Source: Candidatus Saccharimonadota bacterium
GTDB lineage: Bacteria > Patescibacteriota > Saccharimonadia > Saccharimonadales > Saccharimonadaceae
Assembly: GCA_009786195.1 (NCBI GenBank)
Contig: WQTP01000039.1
Coordinates: 1 to 35,700, forward strand
Reading direction: 5' to 3'
DNA length: 35,700 bases
Shown: piece after piece, positions 8,628 to 24,928 of the stretch
How the letters are laid out: each line of letters starts with the position of its first letter
Position numbering within the stretch: position 1 is the first letter of the stretch
Made by a program: the position numbers and the translations under genes
Notes under the pieces: model-generated
Seen by the model: the letters and a program-made list of their open reading frames with translations, nothing else
The model's database searches: none
Told to the model about the DNA's origin: nothing

Positions 8628-9393
8628 TTATTCTAATTCTAATAGTGATGTTCTATCGTCTGGGCTACTCATATTATAAAGATAGCCATTTGGAGAAATA
8701 AGTCTGTAATCACCTATTAAATATTCACTCGAATTATCAATTATTTCCATTCTAGGAAATTGCGCACGCATATCTGACACAATTCTCATGAACTGCGCAT
8801 AACTCACTTCGTATAGGTGTTGATTTTCTACTGCTAGCCCTCTCACGGGAGTAAACTGAAGTAATTTCCACTTTGTAACACCTTTTTCCTGCAAAGAGTG
8901 TCCCACATCCCCAATTTTATCGAGATTGAGTCTAGTTATCACTGAATTGATTGATACTTCAATATCATTTTCCCTCACAAGGTCTATACTATTTAGAATA
9001 TTTTGTTTATGATTTCCAGTTCGCCCAAGTAATTCGTTAATTCCATCATCTACTGAATCAATGGATAATGTAATTTTAGCAAGTCCATTTTTGATTTGTC
9101 CAATCTTTTTCGTTGTTAATAGGCTGCCGTTTGTTGTTAATTTATTTTTGATTCCATAACTATCTGATGTTTTTATTAGTTCGCCCAAATGGGGGACAAG
9201 AGTCGGCTCGCCTCCTTGAAATGTTAGGTCTGTTACACCAAGCTCGGCAAGTTTCGTAATAATTAAAAGATGTTGTTCTTTTGTTAAGTTGTTGTCTTCT
9301 AAATATCGAAAGCAATACCCGCACTTTTGATTGCATTTATCTGTTATTGCCCAAGCGACCTTAGAACTCTCTCTCTCTCTCTCTCATTTGCAT
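8628..9393 (-). pseudogene. Radical SAM protein, viperin/MoaA-like, out of frame at an AG repeat (possibly phase-variable)
   Basis: From about 9368 to 8628 the frame encodes a complete radical SAM core: CNQKCGYCF (CX3CX2C cluster motif, positions about 9335-9309), FQGGEPTL (SAM-binding GGEP), LTTNGSLLT, INSVITRLN and KWKLLQF. The spacing and the motifs CG-C-F, INSVI-R-N and WK--Q resemble viperin-type nucleotide dehydratases; the absence of further Cys argues against SPASM or MoaA-type auxiliary clusters. In this frame a TGA lies at 9386-9384 and there is no usable start before the Cys motif. ATG 9393 and ATG 9387 lie in another frame, lead into nine AG units (9367-9384) and hit TAA at 9363-9361. 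One extra AG unit would join ATG to the core, giving 255 residues. As sequenced the gene is OFF or the tract is miscounted. It lies downstream of jag on the same strand. Confidence 0.8.
9367..9385 (-). repeat. AG/CT dinucleotide tract at the radical SAM start
   Basis: A 19-nt perfect alternating tract, nine AG units plus the G of the start codon on the minus strand. It sits directly after ATG 9387, where slipped-strand changes of +1 or -2 units would switch the downstream radical SAM frame on. Confidence 0.9.
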
Positions 9394-9434: not shown

Positions 9435-9902
9435 TCATATGTCGCTAATTTTCTTCAGCACAATGTGCCGGTCGCGGCCTTCGCCCTCGGATTCGGAGGT
9501 GAGTTGGGAGTAATCAGCCAGAACTTTGTGGACCACGCGACGTTCGGCGGCGTTCATGGGTTTGAGACTCATCGCTTCACCGGTGTCTAAAACTTCTTTG
9601 GCCCACTTTTCGGCTTGGTCGGCGATGCGATCATTGTGACGACGTTTGTAATCGGCCACATCCAAATTCACTCGGGTTAATTCAGCTTCTTTCTGAATTA
9701 AAGTGGTTCGCACTAAAAATTGCAAACTGCGCAAGGTATCACCATTCTTGCCAATCAACAAGTTCGATAAATAAGTATTCGGCACCGAAAGTTCGATCAC
9801 ATCCTCATCAGCCGTCGCATAAACATCAACGTTAATACCAAAAAACGATAGTACGTCCTCGACGTATTTTTTGGCAAATGTTATCGATTCTTCCCTATTC
9901 AT
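9435..9902 (-). CDS. jag: KH-R3H RNA-binding protein Jag/KhpB (EloR)
   Basis: A 155-residue RNA-binding protein, the usual last member of the rpmH-rnpA-yidC-jag block. The KH domain (about 30-90) has the GxxG loop in LIGKNGDTLRSLQFLV, and the R3H domain (about 95-152) contains NAAERRVVHKVLADY, close to the usual M.P.ERR.VH. It lacks the N-terminal Jag_N domain found in Firmicutes, so it is a short form. In Gram-positives KhpB/EloR binds RNA and influences elongation and division. It starts 11 nt after yidC. It ends 41 nt before the radical SAM ATG at 9393. Confidence 0.93.
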   Translation of the reverse strand: MNREESITFAKKYVEDVLSFFGINVDVYATADEDVIELSVPNTYLSNLLIGKNGDTLRSLQFLVRTTLIQKEAELTRVNLDVADYKRRHNDRIADQAEKWAKEVLDTGEAMSLKPMNAAERRVVHKVLADYSQLTSESEGEGRDRHIVLKKISDI

Positions 9903-9913
9903 TATAATTTTTC

Positions 9914-10885
9914 CTATTTCGCCTTGATCCTTCTCACAATCGTCTGGCCGCCACTGGGTTTTGGTGTTTTAACTTTGTAACTTTTATTCTTAGACGGTTT
10001 CTGGGTGATAATTTTTGCTTCGTGAATATCTTTGGGATTAAGTTTGGTAGTTTGAGCACGCGCGGATTTGGTAGCTAATTTTTCCATTTCGCCTAAATCT
10101 TGATTCAGAATAACGTGTTGTTGAATAATAGCGATAAGTGACGTTGTGGCATAATATAACATCACCGCGGCCGGTAGCGCTAAACCAATCATAAAAGTCA
10201 TTACTGGAAAAAGATAGATCATTTTACCAGTAGTAGCCGCTGCCATTTCAGTTTGGTCGACTTCTTTGCCGGCAGCAGCTTCGCGAAACATGTCGCGTAG
10301 TTTTTTCTTTTCAGATGCTTGTGGCATAACTTGCTTGCTTTGGTAAAACTGAAAAGCGGCGGCTAGTGCGGCGATAATTAATGCGGGTAAATACGAGCCA
10401 GCTGTTTTGGTTAAATCAATTATGCCGAATAAGTGTGTTGTGTTATTAGTAAGTAACTCTGGAATCCGCCCGACTTGTTCCAAAAACGGATAAATGAAAT
10501 CGCTGGGTACTACGTGTTGAGCTTGCTGATAAGTCGTTGAGAAAATCTGAATTACCCGAAAAATTGCGAAAAAAACTGGTAACTGAATTACCAACACAAG
10601 AATCGAGCCGAACGGTTTGATCCCTTTCTCGCGATAAAGTTCCATCATCATTTGGCTTTCCAGCATGCGGTTACCTTTAGCCTGGATTTTAATGCGCTTT
10701 AATTCAGGTTGAATCGAGCGCATTAGTTTGGTTTGGCGAAGTTGTTTTTTAACCAGCGGCCAGAGTAGAAAACGAATTAAAATTGTCAGGATAATAATCG
10801 CCACACCAAAATCCGCCACCAAGCTGTAGATTAGTGCCAGTACGTTAAAAATAGGTTGCGTCAGCAATCGATCAAAAATATTCAT
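9914..10885 (-). CDS. yidC: Membrane protein insertase YidC/Oxa1
   Basis: Inserts membrane proteins, alone or with Sec. The 60KD_IMP/Oxa1 core covers about residues 20-275, with FGVAIIILTILIRFLLWPLVKKQLRQTKLM (hydrophilic-groove region), QPELKRIK and MMELYREKGIKPFGSILVLVIQLPVF followed by further helices. The C-terminal tail is basic, as in YidC forms that contact the ribosome. It lacks the large periplasmic domain of proteobacterial YidC and resembles the Gram-positive type. It lies between rnpA and jag on one strand. Confidence 0.96.
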   Translation of the reverse strand: MNIFDRLLTQPIFNVLALIYSLVADFGVAIIILTILIRFLLWPLVKKQLRQTKLMRSIQPELKRIKIQAKGNRMLESQMMMELYREKGIKPFGSILVLVIQLPVFFAIFRVIQIFSTTYQQAQHVVPSDFIYPFLEQVGRIPELLTNNTTHLFGIIDLTKTAGSYLPALIIAALAAAFQFYQSKQVMPQASEKKKLRDMFREAAAGKEVDQTEMAAATTGKMIYLFPVMTFMIGLALPAAVMLYYATTSLIAIIQQHVILNQDLGEMEKLATKSARAQTTKLNPKDIHEAKIITQKPSKNKSYKVKTPKPSGGQTIVRRIKAK

Positions 10886-10921: not shown

Positions 10922-11281
10922 TTATTTTGGGACTGCCTGTGTTTCCAGACCAGTCCCATGTAGTAGTGGCAAGAGTTGGATAGTCAACTCATCGTGTTTT
11001 GCGGCTAGAACATCAGCTGAATAAACACTAATGATGATATCAATCGCGGGTGAACCGGGCAGCAAATGTCGCGTGATTTCATAAATGCGACGACGAATAC
11101 GATTGCGTTTGACTGCGCTTTTAAAGATTTTTTTACTTACTACAACTGCCACGCGCGGATGACGACGATGTTTGTTAACCGCCCATCGAACCGCAAAGAA
11201 TTTACTATGCGCAACTTGACCATTCGACATAACATAACGCAAACTGTTATGACCGTGAAAACGATATTTCTGAGAAATCAC
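10922..11281 (-). CDS. rnpA: Ribonuclease P protein component
   Basis: Protein subunit of RNase P, which matures tRNA 5' ends with the M1 RNA. The 119-residue protein shows the conserved RNR helix VKRNRIRRRIYE and an early FHGHNSLRYV/RVAVVVSKK layout typical of the family. The start is GTG 11281, with the ribosome site AAAGGA 6 nt upstream. A small upstream reading frame (11278-11361) overlaps this GTG as GTGA, suggesting translational coupling. The gap to rpmH is 127 nt, unusually long for this compact window. Confidence 0.95.
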   Translation of the reverse strand: MISQKYRFHGHNSLRYVMSNGQVAHSKFFAVRWAVNKHRRHPRVAVVVSKKIFKSAVKRNRIRRRIYEITRHLLPGSPAIDIIISVYSADVLAAKHDELTIQLLPLLHGTGLETQAVPK

Positions 11282-24411: not shown

Positions 24412-24678
24412 TTATGAATAAACTTCGCGACGATGCGCGACAGTTATTAGCTCAAGGACTAGCTTGTCGTCGATTATCTCTACTAGTAGTCGATAGTCGC
24501 CAATTCGATAGCGCCAGTATTGCCTCAGAGTATGTTTGAGTTGCTTGCCGTGCGAGCGCGGGTCGTCTGTCCCCTCTAAATTATCGGCAATCCATTGGAT
24601 GACGCGCTTGGCATTTACGCGGCCGATTTTACGCAGATCCTTTTCAAATCTAGCTGTCGGGACAATTTTATATGTCAT
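24412..24678 (-). CDS. RelE-family toxin of a type II toxin-antitoxin pair
   Basis: An 88-residue protein beginning MTYKIVPTARFEKDLRKI with a C-terminal YRIGDYRLLVEI-DKLVLELITVAHRREVY, the standard RelE/ParE-superfamily pattern; RelE enzymes cut mRNA on the ribosome. The frame is open further upstream, but ATG 24678 is the start expected by homology and by its 11-nt overlap with the antitoxin gene. The basic residues in the central helix (R.YWRYRIG) fit the RelE active-site region. It lies 12 nt beyond the stop of the convergent adhesin gene. Confidence 0.88.
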   Translation of the reverse strand: MTYKIVPTARFEKDLRKIGRVNAKRVIQWIADNLEGTDDPRSHGKQLKHTLRQYWRYRIGDYRLLVEIIDDKLVLELITVAHRREVYS

Positions 24679-24928
24679 ATTGTGCCTTGAGCTCACTCCA
24701 CGTTGCCGAGGTTTTGTGGCTGGCGTTGTATTTTTGGGCGCGATTGATGGCGGCCAGATCGACCTTGTCATCAGTGTTTTTGATGACAATTTCATCATTG
24801 CTAGCAGCGTTTTTAGCGACCATAATCACAAAAGAATTGAGCGACAATCCCAACCTGTCCGCAGCGCGCTTGATCAGCGTTTTGGTTGCGGCAGTAGTTT
24901 TGATCACCATAGTTGTGTCATTAGCCAT
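24668..24928 (-). CDS. RelB/DinJ-family antitoxin
   Basis: An 86-residue protein with a ribbon-helix-helix-like N-terminus (TTMVIKTTAATKTLIKRAADRLGLSLNSFVIMVA) and a charged C-terminal arm ending WSELKAQYDI that should wrap the toxin. It precedes and overlaps the RelE-type gene, the standard order. The ribosome site AAGAAAGGG lies 7 nt before ATG 24928. A direct repeat around the promoter (24943-24977) is a likely autoregulation site. The pair may stabilise this part of the genome. Confidence 0.85.
   Translation of the reverse strand: MANDTTMVIKTTAATKTLIKRAADRLGLSLNSFVIMVAKNAASNDEIVIKNTDDKVDLAAINRAQKYNASHKTSATWSELKAQYDI

Follow-up and report, generated by a model that had tools for sequence, protein, structure and literature searches.

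An AG dinucleotide tract at the start codon of a viperin-like gene in a Saccharibacteria genome: a probable phase-variation switch

The window analysed here is a stretch of 35,700 nucleotides, contig C39 (WQTP01000039.1) of a draft genome of a Candidatus Saccharimonadota bacterium (assembly GCA_009786195.1, the main genome, labelled G000; 772,085 bases, 43 contigs, 88% complete), and it carries on its minus strand a viperin-like radical S-adenosylmethionine (SAM) gene whose candidate start codons run into a tract of AG dinucleotides. The tract, G(AG)9, occupies 9367-9385, is described by Tandem Repeats Finder as a repeat of period 2 with 9.5 copies and a 100% match, is the longest dinucleotide repeat of the 772-kb genome, and is the proposed site of slippage. 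Two candidate start codons lie at its edge on the same strand: ATG 1 at 9391-9393 and ATG 2 at 9385-9387, the latter abutting the tract so that its G is the first tract base. The minus strand reads ATG (9393), CAA and ATG (9387), then three pairs of AGA and GAG, TTC and the stop codon TAA (9363-9361), so that in the assembly ATG 1 is out of frame with the enzyme core and opens an abortive frame of 10 codons (9361-9393, minus strand), the presumed OFF product.

The core itself lies in another frame, from 9383 to 8628 on the minus strand, which runs for 251 codons without a stop before its own stop codon and contains both the CX3CX2C iron-sulfur cluster motif (9312-9335; C17, C21 and C24 of the core) and the GGEP motif (9204-9215). 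When the core was shuffled, none of 5000 trials stayed open across 252 codons. The frame is closed on its upstream side by TGA (9386-9384), and a frame scan found no ATG, GTG or TTG in it ahead of the cluster motif, the earliest in-frame candidate being TTG at 9188. An alternative start for the core frame is thereby excluded, the upstream side being closed by TAA as well as TGA; reading TGA as glycine, as in the Gracilibacteria code, brings no rescue, since a TAA slightly farther upstream shuts the frame. A preliminary description of this DNA had reported that both ATGs run through nine AG units to a TAA and that an intact radical SAM core sits in another frame without a usable start; these observations, with their coordinates and frame arithmetic, were reproduced exactly.

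That description had also called the gene a radical SAM gene and had left its family unnamed; the motifs bear out the label, and we can now add that the gene is, by sequence and modelled fold, viperin-like. It resembles the prokaryotic viperins (pVips) of Bernheim et al. 2021 (as represented in PMC12926258) in its matches to the PADLOC pVip models (2.8e-46 and 3.7e-43), in its fold and in its conserved residues. Among annotated proteins, viperins come closest, with 29-32% identity, and an AlphaFold2 model of the core, with a predicted local distance difference test score (pLDDT) of 87, found as its top Foldseek matches viperins bound to cytidine triphosphate and SAM (E 9e-18, template modelling score 0.85), although the input alignment of the model contained viperin-like viral proteins and may favour a viperin fold. 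All 28 columns that are invariant in an alignment of the core with five annotated pVips are kept in the core, as follows from the way that alignment was constructed; they take in the cluster cysteines, GGE and a W-K pair, and the gene thus combines the residue set of viperins with a CX3CX2C radical SAM core. It differs from the pVips in that the best NCBIfam model, viperin_w_prok, scores 146.1 bits, under the curated cut-off of 180 bits, whereas annotated pVips score 263-289 bits, in that its C-terminus is about 40 amino acids shorter than in most annotated viperins, and in that its role on a nucleotide substrate is a prediction. In the best tree the core is sister to the pVip clade and not within it, on a long branch (support 92/90), and weaker viperin-like proteins of other Patescibacteria form a separate group; a wider tree does not fix the position of the core relative to the clade. 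We rejected filing the gene as a pVip on the grounds of its score and its position outside the clade, and call it viperin-like because it stands outside that clade on a long branch. A single-protein search of viral contigs returned no relative, and an alignment-based search returned viperins of other lineages.

The position of the tract within the gene is what a switch at the start codon would need. Annotated pVips begin a few residues ahead of a conserved V/I-N-W/F/Y-H segment, and the AG tract lies at just that position. Its translation is a run of Arg-Glu repeats; residues 1-5 of the model have a pLDDT below 50, and the first strand begins at residue 8. As the tract would thus code for a disordered Arg/Glu tail, in-phase changes in its length should be tolerated. 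The tract is a perfect short repeat in the early coding region, its unit is not a multiple of three, and the gene body is intact in one phase. It is also far longer than chance would provide: an order-3 Markov model predicts 2.4e-7 AG tracts of 19 nt in the whole genome.

We therefore read the locus as a slipped-strand contingency locus that is OFF in the assembly, and put the probability of this reading at about 0.7. Slipped-strand mispairing during replication would add or remove AG units in the living population; one of the three phases would join ATG to the enzyme, and the other two would end early or out of frame. With a flexible Arg/Glu tail ahead of the first domain strand, tracts of various in-phase lengths would all give a working enzyme, which may act against viruses through a modified nucleotide. 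The switch would then be one member of a genome-wide set of AG and G9 tracts in this lineage, found both in promoter spacers and in other coding regions.

Evidence for such a set comes from a census of repeats over the whole genome, taken in stretches and counted against the order-3 Markov model. Dinucleotide tracts of at least 12 nt are exclusively AG/CT (six observed, as against none in any of 12 Markov simulations), and no other dinucleotide type exceeds 11 nt. For runs of G or C, the counts are 8 at length 7, 4 at length 8, 47 at length 9, 8 at length 10 and 3 at length 11, so that tracts of nine or more G (G9+) total 58, where the model predicts 1.7, and the length distribution peaks sharply at nine. 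Many of them occupy the spacer of a promoter, behind TTGACA, or the first part of a coding region (for example, L066:17502-17511 and L062:3086-3094). A/T runs of at least 9, by contrast, are depleted (2 observed, 79 expected), and the excess of G and AG tracts therefore does not mean that the genome tolerates repeats in general. Contig ends hold more G9+ tracts than expected: eight of the 58 fall no farther than 70 nt from one, against an expectation of 0.45, and none of 285 control tracts (A7+/T7+) does so; the assembly breaks at poly-G on contigs C3, C7, C11, C23, C28, C30, C35 and C37. This excess fits variation of tract length in the population, but could also reflect trouble in sequencing poly-G.

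The latter possibility bears on the viperin-like gene as well, since the tract there might have been miscounted, the gene being truly in frame and the tract merely an AG-rich N-terminus. The genome is a draft, repeats evidently trouble its assembly at contig ends, and long-read data are prone to miscounts of short repeats (PMC9600527). A tract of 19 nt, however, fits well inside any read, and the genome has further tracts that are in frame, which argues against a general miscount. Were the true count in frame, moreover, the layout would be unchanged and the tract still a hotspot for slippage. We judge a miscount to be improbable.

The genome has five other AG tracts, of which four stand in a spacer that separates TTGACA from a TAnnnT box (17, 17, 19 and 19 nt long) and are followed by ribosome-binding sites (AGGTGA or GAGGAG) and then by genes. 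In related genomes we found 20 distinct AG promoters of this kind, with spacers centred on 17 nt (15 nt in 3, 17 nt in 11, 19 nt in 5 and 23 nt in 1). The pattern TTGACA-N0-6-(AG)6 has 23 matches, some of them overlapping, in five genomes, the reversed control giving none; for TTGACA-N0-12-G9 the corresponding figures are 76 and one. Both kinds of tract are patchily distributed in the family, being frequent in some genomes and entirely missing from many near-complete ones. We note that the genes behind two of the AG-spacer promoters (L068:6981-6996 on C32 and L043:1837-1850 on C16; spacers of 19 and 17 nt) have in common both a leader and their first 25 or so codons (MSASEKMSPWGSQKK...), after which they diverge completely. 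It is conceivable that the tract at the viperin-like gene is likewise a promoter spacer and controls transcription, not reading frame, given that other AG tracts of the genome serve in this way and that its flanks (ATGCAAATG(AG)n and TTCTAAGG) bear a faint likeness to TTGACAAAT(AG)n and TATTCTAGG. Yet TTGACA is absent there, no TAnnnT stands at the right distance, and a transcript that started past the tract would contain no start codon ahead of the cluster motif, so that we consider this explanation highly improbable.

The fifth other AG tract (14 nt; L071:2100-2113 on C35) is the exact point at which a histidine phosphatase gene is split, its two halves matching PF00300 positions 2-77 and 78-186 in different frames. 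A G9 tract (L046:8686-8694 on contig C19) breaks a reverse transcriptase gene into two frames, and in a sister species (genome G002) the ortholog (L208:7472) reads through a G13 tract in a single frame; these OFF and ON layouts lend indirect support to variation in tract length. The sister genomes are mostly too distant for tracts to be compared site by site, the AG promoters and the reverse transcriptase gene alone being comparable. The split reverse transcriptase gene recalls diversity-generating retroelements.

Among relatives we collected start-adjacent tracts, that is, AG/CT tracts with an ATG no more than 45 nt upstream and more than 100 amino acids open behind the tract. Two of the eight are in frame (L113 and L109), L113 having an ATG that abuts the AG tract as at the viperin-like locus, and six are out of frame (L098, L100, L105, L115, L232 and L240); an in-frame share of about one third is the expectation for random phase. 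This mixture makes a miscount special to one locus, or simple decay, less likely as a general explanation. AG/CT tracts of up to 66 nt occur near the starts of long frames (L240:1543-1608 and L100 in G313; L232 in G296), and some tracts of this type apparently encode part of the N-terminus or signal region of a surface protein (SLSLSL). The phase-variation reading, which the preliminary description had raised as a question, is thus supported by its context, if not proven by it: AG and poly-G tracts recur in promoter spacers and early coding regions, and the frames downstream of tracts are intact in one of three phases.

The viperin-like gene stands last behind genes that we name, from sequence and position, as rnpA-like (10922-11281), which heads a probable rnpA-yidC-khpB operon, and yidC-like, encoding a membrane insertase (9914-10885), and behind khpB/jag (KH and R3H domains; 9435-9902), which lies directly upstream with 41 nt between its stop codon and ATG 9393. 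All are on the minus strand, and the viperin-like gene is probably co-transcribed with yidC and khpB. Because it lies last behind these genes on the same strand, transcription is probably constant and control would be exerted in translation; expression would then come from the upstream operon. Together with dnaA, dnaN, recF and a type IV secretion-like cluster, these genes make up a content that fits Saccharibacteria, as do the genome sizes of the relatives. Scans of the window for Rfam families and tRNAs gave no matches. A putative pair of a small RelE/ParE-like toxin and an antitoxin-like protein, named by eye, adjoins the secretion-like cluster (24412-24928).

Several observations weigh against a switch at the viperin-like gene. 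The evidence at the locus comes from one draft assembly, so that variation in tract length would have to be deduced and, with 43 contigs, a miscount is possible. We saw no clear Shine-Dalgarno sequence before ATG 9393 or ATG 9387, in contrast to the AGGTGA or GAGGAG behind the AG promoters, and the gene did not turn up in either of the two further genomes of its genus, which are 81-85% complete. The last two points would also suit a recent pseudogene or a fixed OFF allele, acquired horizontally and frameshifted by slippage at the tract with no switching back. Such an origin would account for the gene being out of frame in the assembly, and accords with its GC content (35.6%, as against 41-46% in its neighbours) and with its short C-terminus. 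Against it stand the 251 codons without a second lesion, in which every motif residue is kept, and the recurrence of like tract types across the genome in switch positions; the Anabaena viperin L254, moreover, also ends early. A search of the genus (3 genomes), the family (394) and the class (392) gave no close relatives at an identity useful for a ratio of nonsynonymous to synonymous change; that the core is still under selection, as the preliminary description held, is something we infer from its open frame and kept motifs alone. We regard loss of function as unlikely, if slightly less so than a miscount, and retain slipped-strand switching as our preferred reading.

The nearest known switch is that of oipA in Helicobacter pylori, where the coding region has a CT dinucleotide repeat at its 5' end and slipped-strand changes of frame turn the gene ON or OFF (PMC10564699). 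The two loci share a frame-changing dinucleotide tract in this position, but here the genome is of the Saccharibacteria type, the product is a viperin-like enzyme that lacks a signal sequence, the tract abuts the ATG, and variation in its length is a prediction. Promoter-spacer and poly-G tracts are also known from the phasomes of Neisseria, Haemophilus, Campylobacter and Helicobacter (for example, PMC2791445, PMC6321876, PMC2651432). These proteobacterial phasomes resemble the present genomes in having many G tracts and simple repeats, over-represented genome-wide in promoters and coding regions; here, however, the phylum is another, the genomes are ultrasmall, and the lineage has a recurrent promoter form whose spacer, from TTGACA to the -10 box, holds an AG tract. 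Phase-variable methyltransferases of restriction-modification systems (for example, PMC6265453, PMC8125046) likewise place a gene related to genome defence under phase control, but act on DNA. A repeat-bearing gene of Gracilibacteria (PMC6851277) was considered as a precedent and set aside as a different thing, a hypervariable repeat within the coding sequence. In the literature searched, with most subscription journals outside its scope, we came across neither repeat-driven phase variation in Saccharibacteria nor a phase-variable viperin. The type of switch is already known, and what is new is the lineage and the target.

Repeat-based phase variation is known chiefly from host-adapted pathogens, and Saccharibacteria are ultrasmall episymbionts with small genomes. 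A broader proposal, to which we would give even odds, is that a branch of the Saccharibacteria runs a genome-wide phasome of AG and G9 tracts, placed in promoters and in coding regions, in which an antiviral viperin-like enzyme is OFF in part of the population, its random ON state serving as bet-hedging against phage. A clear repeat signature in these uncultured, genome-reduced organisms would extend bet-hedging switches to bacteria that live on bacteria, and it points to switch genes that could be tested in existing metagenome reads. It also carries a warning for annotation, as genes called broken in such genomes may be merely in the OFF phase. If the viperin-like gene is indeed switchable, this would suggest that nucleotide-based defence is costly enough to stay off in part of the population.
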